A stretch of 14,682 bases of DNA from Curvibacter sp. (GTDB lineage: Bacteria; Pseudomonadota; Gammaproteobacteria; Burkholderiales; Burkholderiaceae_C), in the NCBI GenBank assembly GCA_003500955.1, contig DNQP01000272.1, forward strand, positions 2,648 to 17,329. The letters run 5' to 3'. Numbering within the stretch: position 1 is the stretch's first letter; every line of letters begins with the position of its first letter. This document shows, one piece after another, positions 566 through 14,682 of this stretch. Position numbers and translations under genes: made by a program. A model generated the notes under the pieces. The model was not told the DNA's origin. It worked only from the letters and a program-made list of their open reading frames with translations, and did not search any database.

Positions 566-1096
566 TCAGGCCGTCAGAGCCACTTTCATTTGTTCCAGAC
601 GGGCCTTGACGGAGGTGTCGAGCACCTCGTCACCCACCACCACGCGGATGCCGCCGATCAGTTCGGCGTCGAGCTCGACCTTGACGTTGAGCTTGCGGCC
701 GAAACGCTTTTCCAGGGCGGCCGACACGCCACCCAGGGCCGCGTCGTCGATCGGAAAAGCGCTGTAGACCAGCGCGTCGGACGAACCGCCCTGAGCGTTC
801 TTGAGCGCACGAAACTGCGCAGCGATCTCGGGCAGGGCGTCCAGGCGGCCGTTGTCGATCACGGTGCGCAGGAAGTTCTGGGCCTGGGTCGGCAGGGCGG
901 TCTTGGCAATACCGGCGATGAGGTCGTACACCTGGTTCGACGTCACGCGCGGGTTGCTGGCAAACTGCAGCAGACCAGCGTCGGCGGCGATCGCAGACAG
1001 CTCTTCCACCCAGACCAGGGCGCCGTTCAGGTCCGCCTTGGTGGACTGGAACAGCGCCTCGGCGTAGGGGCGGGCTATGGTGGCAAGTTCAGCCAT
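566..1096 (-). CDS. atpH: ATP synthase F1 subunit delta
   Basis: The 176-residue protein is the delta (OSCP-like) subunit, which caps the F1 alpha3-beta3 hexamer and fixes it to the b-subunit stalk. The N-terminus [17 protein letters not shown] is a classic delta start with the conserved ARPYA segment. The C-terminal part carries the [23 protein letters not shown] signature of the family near residues 147-170, of which [13 protein letters not shown] is the core. Length matches the usual 175-180 residues. It starts 9 bases after the atpF stop, so translation is probably coupled. There are no anomalies. Confidence 0.97.
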
Positions 1097-1105
1097 GGTT
1101 CACCC

Positions 1106-1576
1106 TTACAGCTCGGTCTTCAGACGGCTCAGCAGATCAGCGTGGACACCGGCATTGACTTCCTTACGCAGGATCTGCTCGGCGCCCTTGACAGCCAATG
1201 CGGCCACCTGCTCGCGCAGGGCCTCACGGGCCTTGACGGTCTGCTGCTCGGCCTCGGCTTTGGCAGCGGCGATGATCTTGTTGCCTTCTTCGGTGGCGCG
1301 CGCCTTGGCCTCTTCAATGATGGCTTGGGCACGACGCTCCGCATCGGCCAGCCTGCTGGCCGTCTCGTTGCGCGACGTGGCCAGCTCGGCCTCGACGCGC
1401 TTGTTGGCGGCGGCGAGCTCGGTCTTGGCCTTGTCGGCGGCAGCCAGGCCGTCGGCGATTTTCTGCGCCCGCTCGTCCAGCGCCTTGGTGATCGGGGGCC
1501 AGATGAATTTCATCGTGAACCACACCAGGATCAGAAAGACGATGGCCTGCAGGATCAGCGTTGCATTAATGTTCAC
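1106..1576 (-). CDS. atpF: ATP synthase Fo subunit b
   Basis: The 156-residue protein is the b subunit, whose dimer forms the peripheral stalk linking the Fo membrane part to delta and F1. One hydrophobic membrane segment lies at about residues 5-24 ([17 protein letters not shown]), followed by the conserved FIWPPI turn at about 24-29. A long, charged, alanine-rich helix then runs to the C-terminus, as expected for the right-handed coiled coil of the stalk. Only one b gene is present and there is no b' paralogue, as in most non-photosynthetic proteobacteria. It sits between atpE and atpH in the standard order. Confidence 0.97.
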
Positions 1577-1612
1577 GGCTCGATCCCTTCTCTCGCGTGA
1601 AGGTTCGGGCGA

Positions 1613-1870
<258 letters not shown>

Positions 1871-1912
1871 CTAAAGGTTAAGTGGAAAAGTGAAAAGAAA
1901 ACGGTAAGGGGT

Positions 1913-2782
1913 TCAGTGCGCGTCGTGCGCCTGGCCGGTGTAGATCAGCGTCAGCATCATGAAGATGAAGGCCTGCAGCGTGATCACCAGGATGTGGAAC
2001 AGTGTCCAGACGGTTCCGGCAATGACGTGGCCGATGGCCAGGCCCACACCGGTGGCCGACAGGGCCCAGCCGCCACCCATCAGGGCGATCAGCATGAACA
2101 CGAGTTCGCCGGCAAACATGTTGCCGAACAGTCGCATGCCGTGCGAGACCGTCTTGGCGACGTACTCGATGACCTGCATCAGGAAGTTGATCGGGTACAG
2201 GGCCCAGTGGTCGCCGAAGGGCGCAGCGATCAGCTCATGCGCCCAGCCGCCCAGGCCCTTGATCTTGATGTTGTAGAACAGGCAGACCAGCAGCACCGAG
2301 CACGACAGGCCCAGGGTGGTGGACAGGTCGGCCGTGGGCACGACCCGCATGTAGTCCTTGAAGCCCATGGCCGGGCCGACGTTGTGCCACAGCATGGGGA
2401 TGGCGTCGACCGGCAGCATGTCCATGAAGTTCATCAGGAAGATCCAGACAAACACGGTGAGGGCCAGCGGCGCGATGACCTTGCGGCTCTGCGCATTGTG
2501 GATCACGCCCTTGGCCTGGTTCTCGACCATTTCCACCAGGATCTCGACCGCAGCCTGGAACCGGCCCGGCACGCCTGCGGTGGCCTTGCGCGCCGCCATC
2601 CAGAACACGAAGCAGCCGATGATGCCCAGCACGACCGAGAAGAAGACGGAGTCCAGGTTGAAAACGCTGAAGTCCACGATGCTGGTCTGCTTCACGCTGT
2701 TGAAGGAGAAATCCTTCTGCAGGTGCTGCAGGTGGTGGACGATGTATTCGCCGGCCGTCGGGCCCTGTGCTTCAGAAGACAT
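1913..2782 (-). CDS. atpB: ATP synthase Fo subunit a
   Basis: The 289-residue membrane protein provides the two half-channels for protons next to the c-ring. Hydrophobic segments lie near residues 46-66, 104-124, 155-172, 222-250 and 255-282. The essential arginine is R217 in SHGMRLFGNMFAGELVF, and the conserved glutamine is Q270 in ITLQAFIF. The N-terminus (MSSEAQGPTAGEYIVHHL) matches the betaproteobacterial form. It starts 14 bases after the atpI stop. A 51-base gap rich in A separates its end from atpE. Confidence 0.97.
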   Translation of the reverse strand: MSSEAQGPTAGEYIVHHLQHLQKDFSFNSVKQTSIVDFSVFNLDSVFFSVVLGIIGCFVFWMAARKATAGVPGRFQAAVEILVEMVENQAKGVIHNAQSRKVIAPLALTVFVWIFLMNFMDMLPVDAIPMLWHNVGPAMGFKDYMRVVPTADLSTTLGLSCSVLLVCLFYNIKIKGLGGWAHELIAAPFGDHWALYPINFLMQVIEYVAKTVSHGMRLFGNMFAGELVFMLIALMGGGWALSATGVGLAIGHVIAGTVWTLFHILVITLQAFIFMMLTLIYTGQAHDAH

Positions 2783-2796
2783 AAATCACCAGTACT

Positions 2797-3303
2797 TCAA
2801 TTCAAATTCTTGGCTGGCGACCTGCGGCGCGCCGGATGCAGCCACATGGCCACCCAGTACACCTTCATCGCCACCACAAAGCCCGCCAGCATAGCCGGCC
2901 AGCTCAGCCCGGGAACCACTTTGGGCGCCGCCACTAGCATCGCCACGGTCAAAACTATCTTGACCAGTTCCCACACAAAAAATCCTGCCAAAGCCGCACC
3001 TGCCGCTCCGGACCGCCGGGACATCGCCCGCGCCAACACACTTGCAGGCAGCACCACCGCCAGCGCCCCGTACAACACGGAGCCGGCCAGTGCGTCCCGG
3101 CCGCTCACCAGCCAGGTCAATCCCGCCGCCAGGCTTCCCGCCACCGCCTGCCAGGCCACGATGCGCCAGGGAGACAGGGCCGGATGCTGCTCACGCCACT
3201 GGCGCGCCTCTTCTGCACTCAGTAGCTTGAATTCGGCTTGCGCCGCCTCATCTTCGTCATCTGCAAAAGCCGATTGCGGCCGGGAGGGCATTTCATGCGT
3301 CAT
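2797..3303 (-). CDS. atpI: ATP synthase subunit I (AtpI-like assembly protein)
   Basis: The 168-residue protein is the first gene of the atp operon. AtpI proteins are small membrane proteins thought to help c-ring assembly or to pass ions and are not part of the finished enzyme. The sequence has an acidic, charged N-terminal tail (about 1-45) and then four hydrophobic stretches near 48-66, 73-92, 103-125 and 136-155. It ends in a basic tail (HPARRRSPAKNLN). Sequence conservation in this family is weak, so the call rests mainly on size, topology and position directly upstream of atpB. The GTG or ATG start is not in question: ATG at 3301-3303 is used. Confidence 0.88.
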   Translation of the reverse strand: MTHEMPSRPQSAFADDEDEAAQAEFKLLSAEEARQWREQHPALSPWRIVAWQAVAGSLAAGLTWLVSGRDALAGSVLYGALAVVLPASVLARAMSRRSGAAGAALAGFFVWELVKIVLTVAMLVAAPKVVPGLSWPAMLAGFVVAMKVYWVAMWLHPARRRSPAKNLN

Positions 3304-3334
3304 GTCGTGCGGCCCCGGCGTCTGCCTTAAACTT

Positions 3335-3363
3335 TTGCAAAGCCGCTGATTATAGATTTAAAT
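3335..3363 (+). promoter_or_regulatory. Putative divergent promoter for the copD-like/dat/lip unit
   Basis: On the plus strand TTGCAA (3335-3340) and TTAAAT (3358-3363) are separated by 17 bases, a fair sigma-70 match. It overlaps the -10 box proposed for the atp operon on the other strand, so the two divergent units would share one short control region. The hexamers are imperfect, hence low confidence. Confidence 0.25.
3349..3354 (-). promoter_or_regulatory. Putative -10 box of the atp operon promoter
   Basis: On the minus strand this reads TATAAT, a perfect sigma-70 -10 hexamer, in an A+T-rich patch within otherwise GC-rich DNA. It lies 45 bases upstream of the atpI start, a sensible leader length. 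No good -35 hexamer is found 16-18 bases upstream, so the promoter is inferred from the -10 box and its position alone. Confidence 0.4.
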
Positions 3364-3453
3364 CGACGGGTTCCCGGTACAAACCCGACCCCTGCCCCGG
3401 GACAAGCTGCCTCCTCCCCAGGGCCGTCGTCCTTGCGGCCCGACACTGTATCC

Positions 3454-3900
3454 ATGTACACCTTCTTCAAGTTTTTTCACCTGGTCGCCGCCATCGTCTG
3501 GCTAGGCGGCATGAGCTTCATGCTGCTGGCCCTGCGCCCCAGCCTGCCGGCCGTCGAGGCACCGCCGCAGCGCCTGAAGCTGCTGGTCACCGTGCTGCGC
3601 CGTTTCTTCGCGGCGGTCTGGGCCGCCATCGGCGTGCTGTTGCTCAGCGGCGTGTACATGTTCGGTCACGCCGACGCCCAAGCGGCGCCGCTGGGCTGGC
3701 ATCTGATGAGCGGCATCGGCTTGTTGATGTTTCTGATCTTCGGCCATCTCTACTTCTCACCCTACCGACGCCTGCAACAGGCGGTGGCCGCCGCCGACTG
3801 GCCCGCCGCCGCGGGCCGCGCCAAGACGATCGCCCGGCTGGTAGGGGTCAATTTCGTGCTGGGCTGGCTGGCCGTCGCGGCCATCGTGTTCCTCGTCTGA
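3454..3900 (+). CDS. CopD-like integral membrane protein
   Basis: The 148-residue protein has four membrane helices, at about residues 5-27, 51-70, 82-103 and 127-147. It starts MYTFFKFFHLVAAIVWLGGMSFM, with core FHLVAAIVWLGGM, the usual beginning of small CopD-family proteins. Histidines H9, H83 and H98 sit inside or at the ends of helices, as in family members suspected of binding haem or copper; no function has been shown by the sequence itself. The ATG at 3454 is preferred over an in-frame TTG at 3433 because the family starts directly at the first helix. It ends 4 bases before the dat-like gene, so the two are probably cotranscribed. Confidence 0.82.
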   Translation: MYTFFKFFHLVAAIVWLGGMSFMLLALRPSLPAVEAPPQRLKLLVTVLRRFFAAVWAAIGVLLLSGVYMFGHADAQAAPLGWHLMSGIGLLMFLIFGHLYFSPYRRLQQAVAAADWPAAAGRAKTIARLVGVNFVLGWLAVAAIVFLV

Positions 3901-3904
3901 GCCC

Positions 3905-4813
3905 ATGCCCGACGTCAACCTGCCCCCGCTGCCCTGTTATCTGAACGGGGACTACACGGTCCTGCCCGAGGCCAAGGTCAGTGTCATGGACCGCGGTTTC
4001 ATCTTCGGCGACGGCGTCTACGAGGTGCTACCGGTCTATGGCCGCTGCCTGTTCCGCTTCGAGCAGCACATGGCCCGGCTGGAACGCAGCCTGGCCGAGC
4101 TGCGCATCCCCAACCCGCACACCCGCGCGCAGTGGTACGCCATCGCAGAACGGCTGGTGGATGCCTACGCGCGCAGCACCGGCGGCGATCCGGAAAAAGT
4201 CGAGCAGATGGTCTATCTGCAGGTCACACGTGGCGTGGCCCTGCGCGATCACGCCATGCTGCCCGGCCTCACGCCCACGGTTTTCGCCATGACCAATGTC
4301 ATGAAACCGGCCAGCGAACAGCAGCGCCGCGAAGGCGTGGCCTGCGTGACGGCCGACGACTTCCGCTGGGAAAAGGCCCATATCAAGAGCACCAGCCTGC
4401 TGGGCGCCGTGTTCGCGCGCCAGATCAGCGTGGACGCGGGTGCTGCCGAGACCCTACTGTTCCGCAACGGCCTGCTCAGCGAAGGGGCCTCCAGCAATGT
4501 CTGGATCGTGAAGAACGGCGTGCTGCTGGGCCCGCCGCGCGATCATCTGGTGCTCGAAGGCATACGCTATGGCCTGCTCGAGGAAATCTGCGCCCTCCAG
4601 AGCATCCCCTTCGAGCTGCGCCGCATCTCCCGTATCGAAGTCCTGACGGCCGACGAGGTGCTGCTGAGCTCGGCCACCAAGGAAATCTTGCCTGTCACGC
4701 GCATCGACGGCCAGCCCGTCGGTGACGGCCAGCCCGGATCCGTCTACGATCTGCTTTACGCGGGCTACCAGGCCGCCAAACTGCAGGCGCGTCTGCGCCG
4801 CCCCACGCTATGA
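3905..4813 (+). CDS. dat: D-amino-acid aminotransferase-like PLP enzyme (fold type IV)
   Basis: The 302-residue protein belongs to the class IV aminotransferases, the group of D-alanine transaminase, branched-chain aminotransferase and aminodeoxychorismate lyase. The N-terminal block SVMDRGFIFGDGVYEV (about 26-41) is the family hallmark. The PLP-binding lysine is most likely K161 in HIKSTSLL. The cofactor-binding glutamate is E193 in SEGASSNVW. The D-amino-acid transaminase assignment is by overall resemblance; a lyase or branched-chain role cannot be excluded. It follows the CopD-like gene by 4 bases and overlaps the next gene by 4 (ATGA). This is consistent with a single mRNA, and this gene often sits beside lipB-lipA in Comamonadaceae, from memory. 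Confidence 0.85.
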   Translation: MPDVNLPPLPCYLNGDYTVLPEAKVSVMDRGFIFGDGVYEVLPVYGRCLFRFEQHMARLERSLAELRIPNPHTRAQWYAIAERLVDAYARSTGGDPEKVEQMVYLQVTRGVALRDHAMLPGLTPTVFAMTNVMKPASEQQRREGVACVTADDFRWEKAHIKSTSLLGAVFARQISVDAGAAETLLFRNGLLSEGASSNVWIVKNGVLLGPPRDHLVLEGIRYGLLEEICALQSIPFELRRISRIEVLTADEVLLSSATKEILPVTRIDGQPVGDGQPGSVYDLLYAGYQAAKLQARLRRPTL

Positions 4814-5106
4814 ACCAGCCCCCGAGCGCACCGTCCAACCCCTCGCGCGCTGACTCGCTGATAGAGTACCCCTGCCGCTTCCCCATCAAGGTCATGGGTG
4901 CCAAGGCCGAGGGCTTTGTGCACGCCGTCACCCTGGTGGCACGCCAGTTCGACCCCGGCTTCGATGCGGCCACCATCGAGCTGCGCGAGAGCAAGGGCGG
5001 CAACTACCTGGGGGTGACCATCACCATCAACGCCACCAGCCGCGAACAGCTCGACGAGCTCTACCGTACCCTGTCCACCCACCCCATGGTCAAGGTCGTG
5101 CTCTGA
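4810..5106 (+). CDS. ybeD: YbeD/DUF493 family protein
   Basis: The 98-residue protein belongs to the DUF493 (YbeD) family, small cytoplasmic proteins with an ACT-like fold. Recognisable blocks are [11 protein letters not shown] (20-30), [14 protein letters not shown] (36-49), NYLGVTITI (65-73) and the C-terminal HPMVKVVL. The molecular role is not established; its steady neighbourhood with lipB suggests a link to lipoate metabolism or its control. It overlaps dat by 4 bases and shares one base with lipB (TGATG), so translation of all three is probably coupled. Confidence 0.9.
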
Positions 5107-5789
5107 TGGATGTGCGCCTGCTCGGGCAGGTGGACTACCTGCCCACCTACCAGGCCATGCAGGACTACACGGCCGCGCGCACCGCCGAGACACCGGATGC
5201 GCTGTGGGTCTGCGTACACCCGCCCGTCTATACCCAGGGCCTGGCCGGCCAGGCCGATCACCTGCTGATGCCCGGTGACATTCCCGTGGTGCAGACCAAC
5301 CGCGGGGGCCAGGTCACCTACCACGGCCCGGGTCAGGTCGTGGCCTACCCGCTGATCGATCTCCGGCGCGCGGGCTATTTCGTCAAGGAATACGTCTACC
5401 GCATCGAGGAGGCCGTGATCCGCACCCTGGACCACTACGGCGTCACGGGTCACCGCGTGGCTGGTGCCCCGGGCATCTATGTGCGCCTGGACGATCCGGG
5501 CAGCCACACGCCCCTGCCCCAGCGCCCGCAGAAGGGCGCGGTACCGAGCGAACCCGATTTCACCGGCCTGGGCAAGATTGCGGCCCTGGGCATCAAGGTC
5601 AGCCGCAACTGCACTTACCACGGCGTGGCGCTGAACGTGGCCATGGACCTGGAACCCTACTTGCGGATCAACCCCTGCGGCTATGCCGGGCTGCAAAGCG
5701 TGGACCTTTCTACAATCGGAGTCTCCGCCGATTGGGCCGACGTGGCCCATGTGTTGAGCCACAAGCTCCAGAACCACCTCCAGCCCTGA
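5106..5789 (+). CDS. lipB: Octanoyl-[acyl-carrier-protein]:protein octanoyltransferase
   Basis: LipB moves the octanoyl group from acyl carrier protein to the lipoyl domains of enzymes such as pyruvate and 2-oxoglutarate dehydrogenase, the first step of lipoate synthesis. The 227-residue protein has the [12 protein letters not shown] block (66-77), the lysine K157 in [11 protein letters not shown] and the catalytic cysteine C191 in INPCGYAGL. Both members of the known Cys/Lys pair are therefore present. Between about 130 and 155 there is a proline-rich stretch longer than in the E. coli protein; it lies in a loop position and should not affect catalysis. lipA follows after 10 bases. Confidence 0.96.
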
Positions 5790-5799
5790 AGGCCCCGCC

Positions 5800-6792
5800 A
5801 TGAGCAGCCCCACCACCGTGCGCGACGCGCAAAGCGTCGAAACCTACGATCCCAGCGCCAAGCAGAAGGCGGCCGCCAAGCTCTCGCGCATCCCGGTCAA
5901 GGTGGAAGCGGGCGAGGTGCTCAAGAAGCCCGACTGGATCCGCGTCAAGGCCGGCTCGCCCAGCACCCGCTTCTACGAGATCAAGGACATCCTGCGCGAG
6001 CACAAGCTGCACACCGTGTGCGAGGAAGCCAGCTGCCCCAACATCGGCGAATGCTTCGGCAAGGGCACGGCCACCTTCATGATCATGGGCGACAAGTGCA
6101 CGCGCCGCTGCCCCTTCTGCGATGTGGGCCATGGCCGTCCCGACCCGCTGGACGTCAACGAGCCCGAGAATCTTGCCAAGACCATCGCCGCGCTCCGGCT
6201 CAAGTACGTGGTGATCACCAGCGTGGACCGCGACGACCTGCGTGACGGCGGTGCCGGCCACTTCGTCGATTGCATCCGCAAGACGCGCGAACTCTCGCCC
6301 CAGACCCAGATCGAGGTGCTGGTGCCTGACTTCCGCGGTCGCGACGACCGCGCCCTGGACATCCTCAAGGCCGCGCCGCCGGATGTGATGAACCACAACA
6401 TGGAAACCGTGCCGCGCCTGTACAAGCAGGCCCGCCCGGGCAGCGACTACCAGTTCTCGCTGAACCTGCTGAAGAAGTTCAAGGCCCTGTTCCCCGATGT
6501 GCCGACCAAGAGCGGCCTGATGGTCGGCCTGGGCGAGACCGACGAGGAGATCCTCGAGGTCATGCGCGACATGCGCGCCCACAACATCGAGATGCTGACG
6601 ATCGGCCAGTACCTCGCGCCCTCGAACTCGCACCTGCCCGTCAAGCGCTACGTGCACCCCGACACCTTCAAGATGTTCGAAGAAGAAGCCTACAAGATGG
6701 GCTTCACGCACGCCGCCGTGGGCGCCATGGTGCGTTCAAGCTACCACGCCGACCAGCAGGCCCACGCGGCCAGCCTGGCTGCCAAGAATTAG
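5800..6792 (+). CDS. lipA: Lipoyl synthase (radical SAM)
   Basis: LipA inserts two sulfur atoms into protein-bound octanoyl groups to make lipoyl cofactors, acting after LipB. The 330-residue protein has the auxiliary-cluster motif with C74, C79 and C85 ([12 protein letters not shown]). The radical-SAM motif has C100, C104 and C107 (CTRRCPFC). The C-terminal R312-S313-S314 (RSSYHA) supplies the serine ligand of the auxiliary cluster. All cluster ligands are intact. A GAAGG ribosome binding site lies 7 bases before the ATG. It is the last gene of the compact unit that starts with the CopD-like gene. The DNA becomes A+T-rich directly after its stop codon. Confidence 0.98.
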
Positions 6793-6800
6793 AAGTAAAT

Positions 6801-6833
6801 GAGAAAGTTTAATAGTTAGCGAGAAAATTCAAT
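6801..6833 (+). repeat. Two direct 13-base repeats with 20-base period
   Basis: GAGAAAGTTTAAT (6801-6813) and GAGAAAATTCAAT (6821-6833) match at 11 of 13 positions and start exactly 20 bases apart, about two helical turns. They lie between the lipA stop and the next gene. Possible meanings are binding sites for a regulator or for a transposase or TnsE-like protein, or one end of a mobile element. No further copies were noticed in the window. Confidence 0.5.
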
Positions 6834-6841
6834 TCATCGCC

Positions 6842-8500
6842 ATGCAATTTGCCTCTGGCTATGCACCCAGACTGTCCTTCTTTCCCCAGGATGGCATGCC
6901 GTGGCGAATCGACTGGTTCGGAGATGTGGCTTTTCCGGACAGACGCGAAGGCCACAAACAGCCAGCCATGTGCTTGGCCATCTCGAGAGTCAACAAGGAC
7001 ACCTTCGACAGGTTTCACTGCAATCGTTCCGTCTTGAAGCAGCGCCAGATTTGGGCACCTGTGGGGTTGCTGCCCAATTTCCGGTTGGGGGACATCTGGC
7101 AGGATGGTTTCCTGTTGCAACGGGAGGTAACCCCGGCAACCACCTTCCAGAGTCTGAACATCAACCGAAGATCCTGCCGGATGGCAAAGGCCGGCATCGA
7201 CGTCAATGGCCAAGGATTCCTTCTACCGGCCTCAGAGCACCCATGGCACATGCGTCACACGCATTCATATTGTCTGGTGGTAAAGCTTAAAGAGGATCAT
7301 CAGCTTGTCATCCCATGTGCCGAATTAATTAGGTTCTACTTTGGTTCATCCAGCAGCCTACTCGCCACGCTCTTCACACCGCCACTGAATCGAAAGCGGC
7401 TATACAGCGATGCCCACTTTCGCTCAGACAGTGGGCGTCTGCACCTGAAACTGGCAAAGGGGATTTCTGGCTATTCAGCCGCGGACATTGGACGACTCCA
7501 TCTGGATAGACACGCCTGGGCGGCCGCCTCTGAAATCGGCCTGTCTTTGCTTGAGGGCACTACTCGCAACGCCAAGGCCTACCCGCGCACGCGCTTCCCG
7601 TTTGTTGGTGAAACGACACTGGTCGCGGTCGGCGAATGGCTGTCCCTCGGAGATCAAGCAGATCGATCATTCCTGGTCCATAGCATCCAATCATGCTCGC
7701 ATCAGTTCCCGTTCCGCACCCTTGCATACGACATGATGCGTGTGTCCCCGTTCGAAAGGTCGCGTCGGCAGCCGCAGGGGATCCAGACGCCACCACCCGC
7801 ATCACAGTTCGCCGGCATCACGCGTTCGCCCTCTGTAGTACATCAGGATCCGTCAAAACACTTCTCACCGAGTAGTTGGTATGTGTGGCAGGGCGTCAAA
7901 TTCCCTGACCTTGAGGCCAAAAGTGTCTTCAAGAGAAGCACCCTGATCGAGCGCATTCCTGCGCCTGCAGCTAATCACCGTCGGAGTTCGGTTGTAGACA
8001 CGTGGGCCATAAGCGAGCCAACAGGCACACGACGCCCCGTCCGCCCGTTGGCACTGGAACTGCCTCAACAGATCCAGGCTATTGATACTGCTCCGGACTT
8101 CCTGCAGGAGCCGTTGTCGAAACTCGTCTCAATCCCCGAAGTCTCGATAACGCTCATGACTGCGAGCCACCAAGACGGTTGGAGCTTGGCAATAAATGCG
8201 ATGCAGGACGACAGTCGTGCCATTGACAGCAGGTTGTACCTTCGGGACGGTCATATCAAACGCATTCGGCGCGCCTGTATCGTGCACGTCGAAGACAGAA
8301 ACGGATCATTGGGATTGCTGGTCTTACTGGAGGCCACCCCCACCCAGGCCTATCTACTGACGGAATTTCCCGCCAACGAAGAGGGGGTTTCTTTAGCGCT
8401 TGAGACTTCAGCCATAAAGTTCCTCACGAAGCGTCGCTCCTTGACCAGCGGCACAATTCAGCAGCTTAGACAAATCGTCAGAAAGCGCCGTCAGAAGTAA
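6842..8500 (+). CDS. Large hypothetical protein, possibly TnsE-like
   Basis: The 552-residue protein has no membrane segment or signal peptide. Its layout resembles TnsE, the Tn7 protein that directs insertion to replicating or mobile DNA (about 540 residues in Tn7). It has an N-terminal WRIDWF (21-26) and an IPCAELIRFYF segment (157-167) followed by a charged region. After a poorly conserved, proline- and serine-rich middle comes a C-terminal domain. There a basic stretch (IKRIRRACIVHVE) leads into an RNGS turn and a strand (LGLLVLLEATP) near residues 483-500. The resemblance is recalled, not computed, so the call is tentative; it may be an unnamed island protein. The ATG at 6842 lacks a ribosome binding site. 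An in-frame ATG at 6896 has AGGA 4 bases upstream and would still keep WRIDWF. The DNA is more A+T-rich than the flanking genes, which suggests transfer. Confidence 0.4.
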   Translation: MQFASGYAPRLSFFPQDGMPWRIDWFGDVAFPDRREGHKQPAMCLAISRVNKDTFDRFHCNRSVLKQRQIWAPVGLLPNFRLGDIWQDGFLLQREVTPATTFQSLNINRRSCRMAKAGIDVNGQGFLLPASEHPWHMRHTHSYCLVVKLKEDHQLVIPCAELIRFYFGSSSSLLATLFTPPLNRKRLYSDAHFRSDSGRLHLKLAKGISGYSAADIGRLHLDRHAWAAASEIGLSLLEGTTRNAKAYPRTRFPFVGETTLVAVGEWLSLGDQADRSFLVHSIQSCSHQFPFRTLAYDMMRVSPFERSRRQPQGIQTPPPASQFAGITRSPSVVHQDPSKHFSPSSWYVWQGVKFPDLEAKSVFKRSTLIERIPAPAANHRRSSVVDTWAISEPTGTRRPVRPLALELPQQIQAIDTAPDFLQEPLSKLVSIPEVSITLMTASHQDGWSLAINAMQDDSRAIDSRLYLRDGHIKRIRRACIVHVEDRNGSLGLLVLLEATPTQAYLLTEFPANEEGVSLALETSAIKFLTKRRSLTSGTIQQLRQIVRKRRQK

Positions 8501-8595
8501 CGAGACGGCTCCAGCTGCGGCGAATCCAGCAATGGATTGGGTACAACTATCACCAGCGGACTCAAGTCAACGACTGCATTGCAGCGATAGCCGCC

Positions 8596-8637
8596 GGTCG
8601 GTAACTAATGCTGAGCGGCTGCTACTTGGTCGCTAAC
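8596..8637 (+). repeat. Short direct repeat next to the integrase gene
   Basis: GGTCGGTAAC (8596-8605) and GGTCGCTAAC (8628-8637) match at 9 of 10 positions, 32 bases apart. An inverted pair, AGCCGC (8589-8594) and GCGGCT (8615-8620), overlaps them. They lie in the 218-base non-coding stretch 8501-8718 downstream of the integrase. The arrangement could be a recombination site, but the copies are short and chance is possible. The rest of this stretch holds only a small hairpin, AATCCA-GCAA-TGGATT at 8523-8538, without a T-run. Confidence 0.25.
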
Positions 8638-8718
8638 GCCATCTCTGCGTGGAGATCCATAGCTGAAAAGCAGGATGCCCAACCCGGCCTGTTTGTCCGG
8701 GTGGACACCACCCACCCC

Positions 8719-9342
8719 TCAGATCTCCGTTTGCTCAGAGATTTCGAGGGCGTCGTCAACTTCAATGCCTAGGTACCGCACCGTCGACTCCAGCTTGGCG
8801 TGCCCGAGAAGCAACTGCACGGCGCGAAGGTTCTTGGTTCGCCGGTAGATCAGCGTCGCCTTGGTCCTGCGCATCGAATGCGTTCCATAGTCGGCACGGT
8901 CAAGCCCTAGTTCGTCAACCCAGTGCCCGAGAATCCGCGCGTACTGCCGGGTTCCGAGATGGGGCGACTCGTGAAGTCGGCTGGGAAACAGGAAATTGTC
9001 CGGTTTCAGCCCAGCGTACTTGATCCACGCCTGCAGGGTATCTCGAGTGGTTGCGGTGATCTCGAACTGAACCGGACGCTGAGTTTTGTGCTGCATGACG
9101 ATGGCGCGGGTTGCCACCTGGTCGCCATGGCAGACGTCCCGGACTTTGAGCGCGACGAGATCGCATCCACGTAACTTGCTGTCGATGCCCAGATTGAGGA
9201 GCGCAAGTTCTCGTATGCGTCCTTCCATCTGAAGGCGGACGCGGAGTGCCCAGATGTCCTTGGGCTTGAACGGCGCCTTCTGCCCTACGATCTTGCCCTT
9301 GTTCCACGGCTCGCGATGTGTGGTGTTACCTACTGTTTCCAT
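8719..9342 (-). CDS. Compact tyrosine recombinase/integrase (catalytic domain only)
   Basis: The 207-residue protein is a site-specific DNA recombinase of the phage-integrase family. All catalytic residues can be placed: R58 (SKLRGCDL), K86 (HKTQRP), H155 and R158 (THSMRRT), H181 (LGHAKLEST) and the nucleophile Y190 (VRYLGI). Typical integrases have 300-400 residues with arm-binding and core-binding domains before the catalytic part. Here only about 40 residues precede it, so the usual N-terminal domains are missing. The ATG at 9340-9342 has GGGAGA 5 bases upstream, and no matching upstream coding sequence is seen in the same frame, so the short form looks genuine rather than truncated by a recent frameshift. 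Similar short integrases are, from memory, common in proteobacteria and plasmids. No partner recombinase is present. Confidence 0.9.
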   Translation of the reverse strand: METVGNTTHREPWNKGKIVGQKAPFKPKDIWALRVRLQMEGRIRELALLNLGIDSKLRGCDLVALKVRDVCHGDQVATRAIVMQHKTQRPVQFEITATTRDTLQAWIKYAGLKPDNFLFPSRLHESPHLGTRQYARILGHWVDELGLDRADYGTHSMRRTKATLIYRRTKNLRAVQLLLGHAKLESTVRYLGIEVDDALEISEQTEI

Positions 9343-9356
9343 GATGGTCTCCCATC
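9343..9356 (-). promoter_or_regulatory. Hairpin holding the integrase ribosome binding site
   Basis: On the minus strand the bases directly before the integrase ATG read GATGG-GAGA-CCATC. This is a perfect 5-base-pair stem with a GNRA-type GAGA tetraloop. The Shine-Dalgarno GGGAGA lies partly in the stem and partly in the loop, and the stem touches the start codon. It could reduce or regulate translation. Confidence 0.35.
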
Positions 9357-9593
9357 GAGTTGAGGGGCACGTAGGATGCGCCGAGAACCGCCGGCGGACT
9401 ACGATCTTGGTTTACAAGCGGGCTAGAACGGCTGGTCAGAGTCAGCTTGTGGCACGCCCCGGGTAGACACTGATCCGGCCAGGTGCGGACGGTAGCGTGG
9501 AAAGCGCAGAGTGGACACCATGTGCCGACGGGTTTCCCAGCCTTGTTATTACCTTTGGAATACCAGAGATTCAGGAATTTCCAGGCCCTAGCC

Positions 9594-10472
9594 TCAGCCC
9601 CTCGCCAGCTCCACAAAGGCCTGCAGGTAATCCACATCGCCATCCGATTCACGCAGGCCCAGGAAAATCTGTTTCTTGAGGCCGTGCCGGCCCAGGCGCA
9701 CGGGCACGATGTCCATGCGTTCGGCGTACTCCTCGATTAGCCAGCGCGGCAGTGCCGTGACACCACGGCCGCTGGCCACCATCTGCAGCAGGATGTCGGT
9801 GGTCTCGATGGTTCGGTGCTGGCGCGGCGCGATGCCTGCGGGCGTAAGGAACTGGTTGAACACGTCCAGCCGCTCGGGTGCCACGGGGTAGGTGATGAGG
9901 ATCTCCTGCGCCAGCTGTTTTGGCAGCACATGGGTCGCCCCGGCCAGCGTGTGGCTGCGCGGGACGACGAGCACCTGTTCGTAGTCGAACACGGGCTCGA
10001 AACGCAGGCCGGGTTTGAACAAGGGGTCGGGCGTGACCAGCAGGTCGATCTCAAAACCGAAGAGCGCGCCGATGCCGCCGAACTGGAATTTCTGCTTCAC
10101 GTCCACGTCCACATCGGGCCAACGCGCGAGGTAGGGGGCCACGAGCTTGAGCAGCCACTGGTAGCAGGGGTGGCATTCCATGCCGATGCGCAGCGTGCCG
10201 CGTTCACCCTCGGCGTATTGCCGCAGGCGTTCTTCGGCCTGGTCCAATTGCGGCAGCACACGGTTCGCCACCGCCAGCAGGTACTCACCCGCCTGAGTGG
10301 GGATGAGCTGGCGCCCTTCGCGCAGCCAGATGGCCGTGCCCAGCAGCGACTCCAGCTTTTTCACTGAATGGCTCAGGGCTGACTGGGTCAGGCACAGGGT
10401 GTCGGCGGCGGCCGTCAACGAACCCTGTTTGGCGACTTCCTGCACGATGGCCAGATGGATGCGTTCCAGCAT
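9594..10472 (-). CDS. metR: LysR-type regulator MetR of methionine biosynthesis
   Basis: The 292-residue LysR-family regulator most resembles MetR, which activates metE and other methionine genes in response to homocysteine. The N-terminal helix-turn-helix includes LTQSALSHSVKKLE (28-41). The effector-binding domain carries MetR-type blocks: ECHPCYQWL (99-107), ITYPVAPERLDVFNQFL (around 193-209) and QMVASGRGVTALPRW. It is transcribed away from metE, the classic metR-metE arrangement, and the 107-base gap between the start codons contains a likely MetR operator. No strong ribosome binding site precedes the ATG at 10470-10472. The 251 bases between its end and the integrase start (9343-9593) contain no convincing gene. 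Confidence 0.93.
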   Translation of the reverse strand: MLERIHLAIVQEVAKQGSLTAAADTLCLTQSALSHSVKKLESLLGTAIWLREGRQLIPTQAGEYLLAVANRVLPQLDQAEERLRQYAEGERGTLRIGMECHPCYQWLLKLVAPYLARWPDVDVDVKQKFQFGGIGALFGFEIDLLVTPDPLFKPGLRFEPVFDYEQVLVVPRSHTLAGATHVLPKQLAQEILITYPVAPERLDVFNQFLTPAGIAPRQHRTIETTDILLQMVASGRGVTALPRWLIEEYAERMDIVPVRLGRHGLKKQIFLGLRESDGDVDYLQAFVELARG

Positions 10473-10474
10473 AT

Positions 10475-10489
10475 ATGAGCCAATCTCAT
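10475..10489. promoter_or_regulatory. Putative MetR operator
   Basis: The palindrome ATGAG-CCAAT-CTCAT has the T-N11-A form of LysR-type sites and is close to the known MetR consensus TGAA-N5-TTCA, here TGAG-N5-CTCA. It lies 2 bases upstream of the metR start and 90 bases upstream of the metE start. From there it could activate metE and repress metR. No confident -35/-10 pair for either gene is visible. Confidence 0.6.
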
Positions 10490-10579
10490 GGATGATTGAA
10501 ATAAGACCATTTTACGTAGTGGGTCTGCTTGCCTAGGATGCCGAGCTTCGACATCACACACACGATAGGCAACAACAAC

Positions 10580-12877
10580 ATGGCCCTGATCCACAACCTA
10601 GGCTTCCCCCGTATCGGCGCCAAGCGTGAACTCAAATTCGCCCTGGAGTCCTATTGGAAAGGCGAGTCCTCGCGCGCAACCCTGCAGGCCACGGGCGCCC
10701 AGCTGCGCCAGCGCCACTGGCAGCAGCAGGCCGGGCTGGACCTGGTGCCCGTGGGCGACTTCTCTTTCTACGACCAGGTGCTGGACATGAGCTTTACGCT
10801 GGGCAATCTGCCCGAGCGCGTGCGGGGTTTCCACGGCGAAGCCCTGGACAACTACTTCCGCATCGCACGGGGCCGTTCTGCCGTCGGGACCGACGAGCAC
10901 AGTGCCTGCTGCGGTGGTGTGGCCGCGGGCGAGATGACCAAGTGGTTCGACACCAACTACCACTACATCGTGCCGGAGTTCACGGCCGCGACCGAATTCA
11001 AGCTCGATGCCTCGCGCCTGCTGGCACAGCTGGCCGAAGCCAAGGCCCAGGGTGTGAAGGTCAAGCCGGTCATCGTCGGGCCCGTCACTTACCTCGCCAT
11101 CGGAAAAGCCAAGGATGATTCCGACAAGCTGGCCCTGCTGCCTCGCCTGCTCGACGTCTATGCCCAACTGCTGGAGACCCTGGCCGCGCAGGGCGTGACC
11201 TGGGTGCAGATCGACGAGCCCCTGCTCGTGACCGAGCTCGATGCTGACTGGCAACACGCCTACAACACGGCCTACCACCAGCTCAAGAGCTGCAAGGTCC
11301 AGCTGCTGTTGGCGACCTACTTCGGTCCCCTGCTGGAGAATGGCTATCTGGCTGCCAACCTGCCCGTGGCCGGCTTGCACATCGATGCGGTCCAGGGCCG
11401 TGACGACGTGCTGCCCGTGCTGAATCTGTTGCCGGCGCACAAGGTGCTGTCGCTGGGGGTGATCAGCGGCCGCAATATCTGGAAGACCGATCTGAACGCG
11501 GTGCTCGACTGGCTGGAGCCGCTCAGCGCACGCCTGGGTGACCGCCTGTGGATCGCCCCCACGTGTTCGCTGCTGCATGTACCGGTAGACCTGGACAATG
11601 AACAGAAGCTCGATGCCGAGGTGAAATCCTGGCTGGCCTTTGCGCTGCAGAAACTCGATGAACTGCAAGTGCTGGGCACCGCCCTGCGTGAGGGGCGCGC
11701 TGCGGTGCAAGACGCGCTTACCACCAACCAGGCCGCGCTGGTTGCACGGCGCACTTCACCGCGTGTGCACAACCCGGCTGTGCAGGCCGCCGTGGCCACG
11801 ATCAGCGACAGCCTGGGCCAGCGTGAACACAACTATGCCCAGCGCGCACCCAAGCAGGCCGCCCTGCTGCAACTGCCCGTCTACCCGACCACCACCATCG
11901 GCTCCTTCCCGCAGACGGCCGAGATCCGCCATGCACGCAGCGAGTTCAAGGCCGGCCGCCTGGACGAGGCCGGCTACCAGGCTGCGATGAAAAAGGAGAT
12001 TGAACGCAGCGTGCGCGAGCAGGAGGCCCTGGGCCTGGACGTGCTGGTGCACGGCGAGGCCGAGCGCAACGACATGGTGGAGTACTTTGGTGAGCAGCTT
12101 GAGGGCTATGCCTTCAGCCAGTTCGGCTGGGTGCAGTCCTATGGTTCGCGTTGCGTGAAGCCGCCCATCCTCTTCGGTGACATCAGCCGCCCCAAGGCGA
12201 TGACGGTGGAGTGGATACGCTACGCGCAATCGCTCACGGCCAAGCCCATGAAAGGCATGCTCACGGGCCCGGTGACCATCCTCAACTGGTCCTTTGTGCG
12301 TGACGACCAGCCGCGTGCGCTGTCCTGCAAACAGCTGGCGCTGGCTATCCGCGAGGAGGTGCTGGACCTGGAGCGGGCCGGCGTGCAAGTGATCCAGATC
12401 GACGAGGCCGCGCTGCGCGAAGGCCTGCCGCTGCGTCGTTCTCAATGGAAGGTCTATCTGGACTGGGCGGTGGAGTCCTTCCGCATCACGGCCAACGGCG
12501 TGCGTGACGAGACGCAGATCCACACCCATATGTGCTATTCGGAGTTCAACGACATCATTGCCTCGATCGCCGACATGGATGCCGATGTCATCACCATCGA
12601 GACCTCACGTTCGGACATGGAGCTGCTAGATGCCTTCGACCACTTCAAGTACCCGAACGAGATCGGCCCCGGCGTCTACGACATCCACTCACCCAACATC
12701 CCGACGCAGGAACACATGGTGCAGCTGATGCGCAAGGCCGCCGAGCGCATTCCGGCCGAACGCCTCTGGGTGAACCCGGACTGTGGCCTCAAGACCCGGC
12801 AGTGGTCCGAGGTGTTGCCGGCGCTGACGCATATGGTGGGCGCGGCGCGTCAGCTGCGCGCCACCGTCGCAGCCTAG
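10580..12877 (+). CDS. metE: Cobalamin-independent methionine synthase
   Basis: MetE transfers the methyl group of 5-methyltetrahydropteroyl-triglutamate to homocysteine without B12, using zinc. The start is taken at 10580, giving the standard N-terminus [19 protein letters not shown] and 765 residues; an in-frame TTG at 10529 would add 17 residues of no family character. Zinc ligands can all be placed: H650 and C652 (HTHMCYSEF), E674 ([10 protein letters not shown]) and C735 (NPDCGLKTR). Each is 9 residues beyond its E. coli counterpart. The C-terminal domain opens with [15 protein letters not shown] and contains [13 protein letters not shown]. Control by MetR is likely from the divergent regulator and the palindrome. 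No riboswitch precedes it; the B12 riboswitch lies after it. No terminator is evident between them. Confidence 0.98.
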
Positions 12878-12894
12878 GACGTATACTGAACTCG

Positions 12895-13071
12895 CCTCGC
12901 GGTTTCCTGCCCAACAGCAGGAATGAAAAGGGAACGACAGAGGGATGGACACTCCATCCAAGCTGTGGCTGCCCCCGCAACTGTGATCGGTGAGTCCGCT
13001 GCCTGACAACCACTGGCTATATGCCGGGAAGGCCGCAGCGGACGACGACCCGAGAGCCAGGAGACCTGCCA
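12895..13071 (+). promoter_or_regulatory. Cobalamin (B12) riboswitch aptamer
   Basis: The conserved pieces appear in order. A 7-pair stem TTCCTGC/GCAGGAA (12904-12923) is followed by GAAAAGGGAAC (12925-12935) and a stem GGATGG/CCATCC (12943-12959). Then come GCTGCCCCCGCAACTGTGA (12968-12986), a 9-pair stem GTCCGCTGC/GCAGCGGAC (12994-13043) enclosing CCACTGG and GCCGGGAAGGC, and finally the B12 box AGCCAGGAGACCTGCC (13055-13070). The element binds adenosylcobalamin or a related corrinoid and usually switches genes off. It points at the thioesterase gene 173 bases further on. End points are approximate. It starts about 17 bases after the metE stop. Confidence 0.95.
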
Positions 13072-13121
13072 CGGGGCGATGTGATTGTGCATGGGGCGGG
13101 GTGTCCTCGAGCAAGATCGGT

Positions 13122-13243
13122 GGTGCTTCGTCCTGCCTTCGTCTTCCGCGCGCCTGCGTCTTCGGGTCAGCGCGTGTGGCCGTGTCCGCGTGCGTTGCGC
13201 CTGGTTTTGCCGTGCTCCCGCCTTCTTAACCGGAGGAAGCACC
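13122..13243 (+). promoter_or_regulatory. Putative riboswitch expression platform: anti-Shine-Dalgarno helix
   Basis: GGTGCTTCGTCC (13122-13133) can pair with GGAGGAAGCACC (13232-13243) at 11 of 12 positions, with one G-G mismatch. The second arm contains the Shine-Dalgarno GGAGGA (13232-13237) and ends directly against the TTG start at 13244. A competing smaller hairpin, CGAGCA (13108-13113) with TGCTTCG (13124-13130, one bulge), would use the same first arm and free the ribosome site. The 98 bases between the arms hold no gene. The pairing is seen; the switching is inferred. Confidence 0.55.
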
Positions 13244-14035
13244 TTGTCTGTACTCGTTGAGCCCGAAACGTCCGCGCCCGCGGACACCCCCAACATGTCC
13301 CTGGTCGTGGTCGACATGGTCTGGCCCGATCAATCCAACCACCACGGCACCCTGTTCGGCGGTGCGGCCCTGTCCATGCTCGACCGCATGGCCTTCATCG
13401 TGGGCAGCAAGGTGCTGCGTGGTTCCGTGGTCACGGCCGCGGTGAGCAGGCTGGACTTTGCCGCGCCAGCGCCCGCGGGCCATCTGGTGGAGTGCCGCGC
13501 CGAGGTGTTGCAGCGGGGCCGCCGGTCCGTCACCGTAGACACCCGCCTGATCGCCGAAGACCTGCTCAGCGGTGCACGTACCCACTGCCTCTCGGGTGAG
13601 TTCGTGATGGTGCGCCAGGCTGACGAGGCGCCCGCCGATGCAGCTGAGGCAGCCGAGGTGGCGCAGGCCAGGCATGAGGCCGGTGCCGAAAACACGGCCA
13701 TGGCCTGCGCCACCGTGGCTGAGATCGTCTTCCCTGGCCATGTGAACCACCGCGGCGTGCTGCACGGCGGTCCCGCCATGGCCTGGATGGCCAAGGCCGG
13801 TTTCGTGGCCGCCACGCGCCAGGTGCGTCGACCCGTGGTGATGGCGGGCACCGAACAGCTGGACTTCGTCGCCTCGGCGAGGGTGGGGGATGTGGTCGAG
13901 GTCACGGCCCGCGTTATCGGCACCGGCCGGCGCTCCATCCGTGTGCAGGTAGATATGTGGGCTGAGTCGTCGAGTAGCGGCGAACGCCGGCTCTGCGCCT
14001 CGGCCCCGCTGACTTATGTGGCCATCGAGGCTTGA
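13244..14035 (+). CDS. Double-hotdog acyl-CoA thioesterase
   Basis: The 263-residue protein has two hotdog domains in tandem (about 15-125 and 155-260), the plan of BACH/ACOT7-type acyl-CoA thioesterases, which hydrolyse acyl-CoA to free acid and CoA. Domain 1 has NHHGTLFGG (32-40) and an acidic residue D47 in the hotdog helix. Domain 2 has NHRGVLHGG (168-176), but the matching acidic position is A183, so the active sites are probably formed unequally by the two halves. An alanine-rich linker joins them. The TTG start at 13244 is chosen because GGAGGA lies 6 bases upstream; a longer frame from 13085 would run through an Arg/Cys-rich, non-family sequence. The gene sits behind a B12 riboswitch. 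The substrate is unknown. Confidence 0.85.
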   Translation: MSVLVEPETSAPADTPNMSLVVVDMVWPDQSNHHGTLFGGAALSMLDRMAFIVGSKVLRGSVVTAAVSRLDFAAPAPAGHLVECRAEVLQRGRRSVTVDTRLIAEDLLSGARTHCLSGEFVMVRQADEAPADAAEAAEVAQARHEAGAENTAMACATVAEIVFPGHVNHRGVLHGGPAMAWMAKAGFVAATRQVRRPVVMAGTEQLDFVASARVGDVVEVTARVIGTGRRSIRVQVDMWAESSSSGERRLCASAPLTYVAIEA

Positions 14036-14513
14036 GATCTCGCCGCTGCTGCCCGTGCACCGTGGTGCGCTGGGCCTGCACCTGCTGGCCCTCCCGGCCG
14101 AGCACCGGTACTCTCGCTTCGGCGCCACGCTCAGCGACGAGGCCCTGCTGCGCTGGGTGGCTCGCTTGGCCTGGGAGCGGCAACGATGCTGGGGGGCTTG
14201 GCTTCCGGGAGACCTAGGCTTGGTCGCCGTGCTTCAGCTCACCCCCACACGCCGGCTTGGCAGTTGGGAACTTGCCCTCACAGTGGCCGCCGCCCTGCAT
14301 GGTCGGGGCGTGGGCACGACCCTGCTAGCTACGGCCTTGGGTCAGATGCCCGACGTACGGCAACTGGTATGCCAGCACGGCCACGCGGCCGTCTACGCCA
14401 TGGCAAAGCGGCTAGGCTATGGTGTGCAGTGGCAGGGACAGCAACTGAGGTTGGCAACAGCAGCACCGCACAGCACGGTCCCGGCAACTCCGAAACGGGC
14501 TGGTAGGCGCTGA
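14016..14513 (+). CDS. GNAT-like acetyltransferase
   Basis: The 165-residue protein resembles GNAT N-acetyltransferases, which move an acetyl group from acetyl-CoA to an amine. The key signature is LALTVAAALHGRGVGTTLL (86-104): a strand, then the acetyl-CoA pyrophosphate loop GRGVG, then a helix. The C-terminal HAAVYAMAKRLGYGV fits the last helix and strand of the fold. The substrate cannot be told. The ATG at 14016 overlaps the thioesterase end by 20 bases and lacks a ribosome binding site; a GTG at 14055 is an alternative. Overlap suggests translational coupling to the thioesterase and so possible B12 control too. Confidence 0.65.
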   Translation: MWPSRLEISPLLPVHRGALGLHLLALPAEHRYSRFGATLSDEALLRWVARLAWERQRCWGAWLPGDLGLVAVLQLTPTRRLGSWELALTVAAALHGRGVGTTLLATALGQMPDVRQLVCQHGHAAVYAMAKRLGYGVQWQGQQLRLATAAPHSTVPATPKRAGRR

Positions 14514-14581
14514 TTCAATATCTGCTTTAGCAAGGAGCGAAGGTTCAACAACGCTAATTCATGGGCCCCGATAGCGGCCAC

Positions 14582-14680
14582 CCAGTCAGCGAGCTGCTCA
14601 GTGACTGGTGTCGATGGCAGCAGTCATTGACGCTCCGAAATCAAGTGACTGCAGCCAGCCGAGGCTGTGTGGAAACAGCC
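14582..14680 (+). repeat. Three successive inverted repeats in non-coding DNA
   Basis: After the GNAT-like gene the sequence holds CCAGTCA/TGACTGG (14582-14588 and 14602-14608), then GCAGTCA/TGACTGC (14620-14626 and 14646-14652), then GGCTGT/ACAGCC (14663-14668 and 14675-14680). The first two share the AGTCA/TGACT core. They could form hairpins in RNA (no T-run follows, so not a standard terminator), bind a dimeric protein, or be ends of a mobile element lying beyond the window. Confidence 0.45.
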
Positions 14681-14682
14681 AT

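Follow-up and report, generated by a model that had tools for sequence, protein, structure and literature searches.

Why should a gene for an acyl-coenzyme A (CoA) thioesterase lie behind a cobalamin (B12) riboswitch? The question is raised by a stretch of Curvibacter sp. DNA of 14,682 nucleotides (nt; GenBank assembly GCA_003500955.1, contig DNQP01000272.1), called the window below, in which a first-pass annotation had noticed a complete aptamer and, next on the same strand, a thioesterase gene. Rfam bore this out: positions 12883..13087 of the plus strand matched the cobalamin riboswitch family RF00174 over the whole model (1-189 of 189) with 112.8 bits, against a gathering threshold of 31.5. 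This was the sole Rfam match above threshold in the window, and because its E-value is 4.2e-28 it is not due to chance. Only the 5' edge needed correction, the start proposed at first, 12895, falling 12 nt inside the aptamer. Thus, 12883-13087 is a complete predicted cobalamin riboswitch. The gene behind it (13244..14035, +) encodes a double-hotdog acyl-CoA thioesterase, and we use TE for this protein and its relatives. The window's contig (C197) belongs to a genome of 3.3 Mb in 308 contigs, which holds two further cobalamin riboswitches.

Comparative sequence evidence shows a riboswitch with conserved linkage to TE, a clustering of TE genes with those for B12-independent enzymes, and the fold and catalytic-type residues of TE itself. 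In our judgement it is likely that TE is a B12-repressed short-chain acyl-CoA thioesterase that belongs to a B12-shortage regulon and probably releases CoA from propionyl-CoA or methylmalonyl-CoA. We infer from this evidence what TE acts on and what it does for the cell, that it shares a transcript with metE, and that B12 turns it OFF. On binding B12, the aptamer would keep TE and a coupled GNAT acetyltransferase gene low; as B12 falls, TE would be made, as for metE and nrd genes. Acyl-CoA mutases that depend on adenosylcobalamin (AdoCbl) would stall, propionyl-CoA and/or methylmalonyl-CoA would back up, and TE would hydrolyse them, with release of the CoA.

Recurrence of the riboswitch-TE pair

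TE relatives were collected by protein similarity alone, independently of any riboswitch. They came from a set of 60 relatives (five of them, besides the window's own genome, at least 69% identical), from a collection of named genomes (12 loci) and from genome searches, which found TE in 9 genomes out of 399 of the family and 3 out of 399 of the order (the window's own included in each), and in 4 out of 274 of the class and 28 out of 378 of the phylum, most of the last two sets being single-hotdog. Plasmid searches matched 208 records, of which 13 were fetched; among the 14 best rows, H5, H8, H9, H10 and H14 were left out. A similarity listing of 669 similar proteins stands outside the gene-context counts. 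Removal of duplicates left 27 distinct double-hotdog TE proteins. L066 (100%), a contig of Curvibacter sp. PD_MW3 identical to the window over 5,417 bp, was not counted apart from it, nor were L008 (100% to L066) and L009 (99.5%); L010, L011, L081, L083, L085, L087 and L164 were 100% duplicates of L076, L070, L071, L075, L077, L068 and L068, respectively, and L102 includes L074.

Of these 27, 25 have a cobalamin riboswitch at the head of the TE transcript. It stands directly before TE in 19 (the window, L012, L067, L069-L077, L082, L084, L086, L088, L101, L103 and L113), with a gap of 47-228 nt between aptamer and TE match, while six more (L105, L106, L108, L110, L141 and L142) have the order riboswitch-metE-TE. 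The pairing spans several genera of Alpha- and Betaproteobacteria. Recurrence across genera with conserved spacing was the check that the first-pass annotation had proposed, and a btuB or cob gene between riboswitch and TE was the finding that would have overturned its pairing; the gaps in the 19 direct loci are too short for such a gene. It had also suggested that the usual target was lost or displaced, which would leave TE the chance neighbour of an orphan riboswitch. The position of metE in the window, upstream of the switch and not behind it, could be read in this way, but the linkage in 25 of 27 TEs contradicts it, as do the separate orders riboswitch-metE-TE and riboswitch-nrdA-nrdB-TE, and we give it next to no credence. 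A displaced riboswitch was rejected as a general explanation on the same linkage.

Could the riboswitch instead control metE, for example via the 3' end of the metE transcript, and not TE? The gene (10529..12877, +; Pfam PF01717 and PF08267) encodes the cobalamin-independent methionine synthase, and the spacing is suggestive: the aptamer starts 5-6 nt past the end of the metE open reading frame (ORF) in the window and in Caldimonas, and 39 nt past it in G003. However, metE lies just upstream in only the window, L077 and L012 of the 19 direct loci (L067 has a remnant), and the riboswitch faces TE in all 19, so that control of metE in this way is very improbable. In the window, metE and TE probably share a transcript on which B12 gates TE separately, since the aptamer lies within the metE-TE gap and, less tellingly, no promoter-like site was found between the two.

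The linkage did not extend to other hotdog proteins. No cobalamin riboswitch was found within up to 1.5 kb of any hotdog paralogue in a control set of 37 that lie outside the TE clade: L015-L036, 22 proteins taken from the 60 relatives, and L126-L140, 15 proteins taken from the phylum search. Rfam was run on 26 of these controls, and L015-L036 were scanned with R1, a model built from TE-linked and neighbouring aptamers and less sensitive to other riboswitch kinds; the stretches of L022, L029 and L133 end early at contig ends. In the same run R1 recovered 10/10 Rfam-known riboswitches among the positives. The linkage of riboswitch and TE is well supported.

B12-independent neighbours, fold and single-hotdog relatives

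The first-pass annotation was silent on the metE stop 6 nt ahead of the aptamer, on the divergent LysR-type gene, on the GNAT overlap and on the recurrence of B12-independent neighbours. A B12-independent replacement enzyme was present in the stretch read for 19 of the 27 TE loci, counting L067, where metE is reduced to an ORF of 109 amino acids (aa) matching metE 676-770. The metE loci are the window, L068, L077, L012 (only the 3' part of the gene lying within the stretch), L086, L105, L106, L108, L110, L141 and L142. MesX-MesD genes occur in L071, L074, L103 and L113; the identity of MesX was borne out by PF08908 matches in L071 and on plasmid pOS401, while the annotation in L103 and L113 is DUF1852, which we take to be PF08908. 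A PRK06520-type MetE-like synthase lies directly 3' of TE in L070 and L076, and also in L012, and ribonucleotide reductase (RNR) genes lie near TE in L101 and also in L105, L108 and L110. In L088 a second, divergent riboswitch precedes a CbiM-like cobalt transporter (translation read by eye), and cobS is near TE in L075. MetH was present in 21/21 TE genomes given and class II RNR (NrdJ) scored above cut-off in 16/21, so the neighbours of TE are mostly backups, not sole enzymes. Because the riboswitch linkage recurs, often beside B12-independent replacement genes, TE is probably part of the B12-shortage response.

Plasmid pOS401 (L102) carries the order riboswitch-TE-GNAT-metR-FMN reductase-MesX-MesD at 887-12789, with a gene annotated as an IS1071 Tn3-family transposase on either side; the block is likely a mobile B12-independence cassette.

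Methionine synthases and RNRs being the commonest neighbours, TE might serve the B12-independent methionine and deoxyribonucleotide routes, acting for instance on a thioester or thiolactone from homocysteine build-up, and have no part in acyl-CoA mutase chemistry; two nrdA-TE genomes with no match to the mutase family PF01642 would fit. The methionine synthesis, RNR and 2-methylcitrate neighbours, however, are unrelated pathways that share B12 independence but have no thioester substrate in common. The prp branch described below points to propionyl-CoA, and the fold and catalytic-type residues of TE match CoA thioesterases. We therefore find this explanation unlikely.

Pfam 4HBT matched TE in two stretches (E 1.7e-30), and the protein shares the two-domain architecture of PDB 2gvh (Agrobacterium AGR_L_2016p, named just acyl-CoA hydrolase), to which it was compared by structure and sequence (residues 21-262 matched with E 1.1e-50; Foldseek alignments gave 36-38% identity). 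In the first hotdog of the window's TE, Asn32 and Asp47 are catalytic-type residues, and the second has no matching Asp. A motif script found Asn or Asp, plus Asp, in 27/27 first hotdogs of the distinct TEs, while the Asp was missing at the matching place in 26/26 second hotdogs scored (one was without the motif), which suggests one working active site per hotdog pair. Titles of PDB entries name mutants at seemingly matching residues: Asp44Ala for HI0827, and Asn28Ala and Asp43Ala for a S. aureus enzyme. The AlphaFold2 model has two hotdogs (mean pLDDT 76.6, pTM 0.55), their relative placement being uncertain; single hotdogs superpose on solved relatives at 1.3-2 Å, and whole-length TM-scores to the best of these, 2gvh, ACOT12 and ACOT7, are only about 0.4. 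In L077 (Caldimonas manganoxidans, 4001-4770) the TE frame is broken in the second domain, with riboswitch and GNAT gene retained; this is either a decaying gene or a sequencing error.

The fold and the Asn/Asp catalytic-type residues are common to TE, YciA and ACOT7/ACOT12. TE could therefore be a broad-specificity CoA recycler, B12 shortage merely trapping CoA and the acyl group being immaterial, and its partial likeness to ACOT7/ACOT12 and to the broad-specificity YciA (equivalog PRK10694, 81.8 bits) speaks for this. That score is far under the cut-off of 162, and TE is not a member. Moreover, the TE clade stood apart from YciA-like paralogues at a branch with 99/95 support in the domain tree (106 rows and 107 columns, few for the row number; midpoint root), and, unlike TE, none of the 37 paralogues examined has a linked riboswitch, although neither point measures specificity. 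We hold a broad recycler to be rather doubtful, and prefer a short-chain enzyme of the B12-shortage regulon.

On one side of the 99/95 branch (67 rows) the tree placed the double-hotdog domains together with two single-hotdog groups, and on the opposite side the 37 control paralogues; L152/L116 (G812), tandem YciA-like ORFs, were left out. In single-hotdog group one (6 rows), nrdA lies upstream of TE in 5/6 loci and a riboswitch ahead of nrdA in 3/6: G1215 and G1331 by Rfam, and G969 by R1 (38.7 bits). The riboswitch-nrdA-nrdB-TE order is thus seen as a separate arrangement, and Pfam confirmed the RNR subunits in G1215. In G1159 and G1347, searched with R1 only, no riboswitch was found before nrdA. 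One genus holds both states: nrdA-TE with a riboswitch and a PF01642 match in G969 (L144/L155), and nrdA-TE with neither detected (the riboswitch by R1 only) in L145 and L146, the loci of G1159 and G1347.

In group two, all 7/7 loci have prp genes (2-methylcitrate, propionyl-CoA) and an ScfR-type regulator, L112 having only prpB. Five of these loci were known before the tree; L013 and L014, from the window's family, were placed by the tree first and their neighbours read afterwards. Both showed TE-prpC, a prpB-like gene and an ScfR-type regulator, and in one of them Pfam confirmed an aconitase as well. In G1259 a TE-prpD-prpC-prpB operon is flanked by riboswitch-nrdA and by another riboswitch. 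No riboswitch was found directly before TE in the prp loci L107, L109, L112, L150 and L151. A similar set, likened here by gene context, comes from Paracoccus denitrificans, where PMC10370305 groups the acyl-CoA thioesterase Pden_1349 with methylcitrate-cycle genes: TE-prpD-prpC-prpB has an ScfR-type regulator for a neighbour, an arrangement shared with L107, L109, L150 and L151. Unlike the riboswitch-linked TE of the window, a prp TE of this type would presumably be under the ScfR-type regulator.

The prp branch and the logic of B12 dependence are our reasons for proposing propionyl-CoA or methylmalonyl-CoA as the substrate. The first-pass annotation had guessed the same; the 7/7 prp loci in the single-hotdog sister branch speak for its guess, whereas the mutase content of TE genomes, given in the next section, is uninformative or lacking. 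As a whole, its interpretation is partly supported.

Thermus brockianus has the order riboswitch-TE-nrdB-nrdA, the riboswitch matching the AdoCbl family RF01482 (52.6 bits, gathering threshold 50). By analogy, this offers a lead, and only a lead, on the context of PDB 2eis (Thermus thermophilus TTHB207), a single-hotdog protein with an E-value of 3.4e-21 to TE, which has two hotdogs. In Deinococcus radiodurans MP1 (L104, 3929-8117) the first gene of a TE-nrdI-nrdE-nrdF series encodes a single-hotdog TE; transposase and integrase genes lie close by, and no riboswitch was detected at this locus.

How does TE relate to known riboswitch targets? In its accessible text, PMC3766115 distinguishes four classes: B12 synthesis, transport of B12 and its precursors, cobalt transport, and isozymes of B12-dependent enzymes. 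A thioesterase fits none of these and so lies outside that target set; "thioesterase" occurs 0 times in the main text of that paper (supplements were outside the search). TE resembles the isozyme regulon (metE, B12-independent RNR) in its aptamer families, RF00174 and RF01482, in its logic and in the operons they share. Unlike those genes, it is no isozyme and would relieve a blockage instead of replacing an activity. Its family matches are thioesterases, not isozymes that replace a B12-dependent activity, and we know of no B12-dependent enzyme with thioesterase activity. We would give even odds to a broader claim: that the B12-independence response has an overlooked arm in a dedicated B12-shortage thioesterase, under cobalamin riboswitches or in metE, nrdA-nrdB and 2-methylcitrate loci of Alpha- and Betaproteobacteria, of further orders in the window's class and of Thermus; this enzyme would hydrolyse stranded propionyl-CoA or methylmalonyl-CoA, replace no B12 enzyme and be able to move in cassettes such as that between the IS1071 copies on pOS401.

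We found no earlier report of the pairing in the searchable literature. The accessible parts of PMC4465626, PMC4809877, PMC8620254, PMC7205611, PMC13194489 and PMC8216456 contain no link between a cobalamin riboswitch and a thioesterase; the main text of PMC7857596 has 0 occurrences of "riboswitch" and 0 of "thioesterase", and that of PMC9600662 has 0 of "thioesterase". The titles of further papers pointed to no such report. A 2003 comparative survey of the B12 regulon, most subscription papers, regulon databases and supplements lay outside the search, and may mention it. If our proposal is true, bacteria provide for CoA trapping on B12 failure, in a bacterial parallel to propionic or methylmalonic acidaemia. 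A testable physiological role would follow for a family that has no annotation beyond "acyl-CoA thioesterase" and whose relatives 2gvh and 2eis have solved structures, and TE could serve to track down further B12-shortage genes, the coupled GNAT gene being an example.

Leader folding and evidence against the proposal

The aptamer contains the strand GCTGCCCCCGC (12968..12978, +), which we presume to be loop L5 of a kissing loop, and just 3' of the aptamer lies a complementary (by inspection) strand, GGGGCGGGGTG (13093..13103, +), which we take to be L13-like. The L13-like motif (GGGCGGGGTG or GGACGGGGTG) was matched in 18/20 TE leaders, L069 and L103 being unmatched, and is retained in L068, which is without an aptamer. 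In an alignment of 24 related aptamer cores, standard pairs fill 95.0% of cells, and 14/24 pairs have both-sided changes, figures flattered by the derivation of the structure from the same alignment. A weak terminator-like stem with a T tail (13188..13200, +) lies between aptamer and TE; it is not backed by numbers, as the 2 terminator-like sites in 12600-14682, one of which precedes TE, compare with 0.9 ± 1.1 in shuffles and are not significant. No sigma-70-like promoter was found in 12600-14682.

One candidate mechanism was an antisequestor, in which L13 pairing upstream of the Shine-Dalgarno (SD) sequence frees the SD without B12. Folding did not support it: the SD of TE was predicted to be mostly paired in both states. 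Out of 16 leaders, 2 had no clear SD, 3 had no L13-pattern match and 11 were scored. With L13 blocked, SD accessibility shifted by 0.01 or less in 10/11; the exception was L086, with an increase from 0.10 to 0.32, opposite to the antisequestor prediction.

This failure of the SD-switch model weighs against our proposal, and so do the following observations. The title of PMC10653944 speaks of corrinoid riboswitches that activate, so that OFF with B12 is only what we infer. Two double-hotdog TEs are without a riboswitch. For L143 none was found by Rfam in 10 kb, or by R1 in an additional 10 kb on the upstream side. In L068 the match to the window breaks at 12903 and resumes at 13087, so that about 183 nt of aptamer are gone, with the L13-like strand and the SD kept; the locus is one metagenome-assembled contig (L068, L087 and L164 are identical in sequence), and the missing aptamer may be an assembly error. 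TE is patchy, being present in only 9/399 family genomes, the window's own among them. No B12-independent isozyme was found in 8/27 TE loci (L069, L072, L073, L075, L082, L084, L088 and L143) by tblastn at 1e-6 to 1e-8 over stretches of about 8.7-13 kb, and the single-hotdog L149 is likewise without a linked isozyme. Mutase presence (PF01642) does not discriminate between TE genomes and background, at 12/12 family TE genomes against 136/150 background genomes and 22/24 TE genomes overall; the 2/12 further TE genomes without a match are G1159 and G1347, which have nrdA-TE with no riboswitch detected. Finally, the Thermus and Deinococcus TEs fell outside the TE clade, among the paralogues, and are either independent recruitments or misplaced in the tree.

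Genes around the window riboswitch

The longest TE ORF begins at TTG 13085, within the aptamer tail. The start is more likely TTG 13244, behind the SD sequence GGAGG at 13232..13236 (+), which gives a protein of 263 aa. A GNAT acetyltransferase gene identified by Pfam (14016..14513, +) overlaps the TE stop by 20 nt and is possibly translationally coupled to TE; among 16 loci from the window's family and its nearest kin, 10 had a GNAT match 3' of TE, which in L075 was fragmentary.

On the other side, a LysR-type regulator gene of the MetR kind (9594..10472, -; Pfam), 76% identical to a pOS401 gene annotated MetR, is divergent from metE. Between it and a gene that we take to be lipA sit a phage-type integrase gene (8719..9342, -; PF00589) and a 552-aa ORF without assigned function (6842..8500, +), an arrangement that suggests an insertion adjoining the metR-metE-TE block.

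Elsewhere in the window's own genome, on contig C44 (L005), a cobalamin riboswitch (4953-5177) lies 36 nt ahead of a bioA-bioF ORF pair for biotin synthesis (5213-7778). Genus relatives were compared by score and downstream gene: one of ten ends at a contig edge, and in the other 9 a similar-scoring riboswitch precedes not bioA-bioF but a TonB-receptor-like gene.

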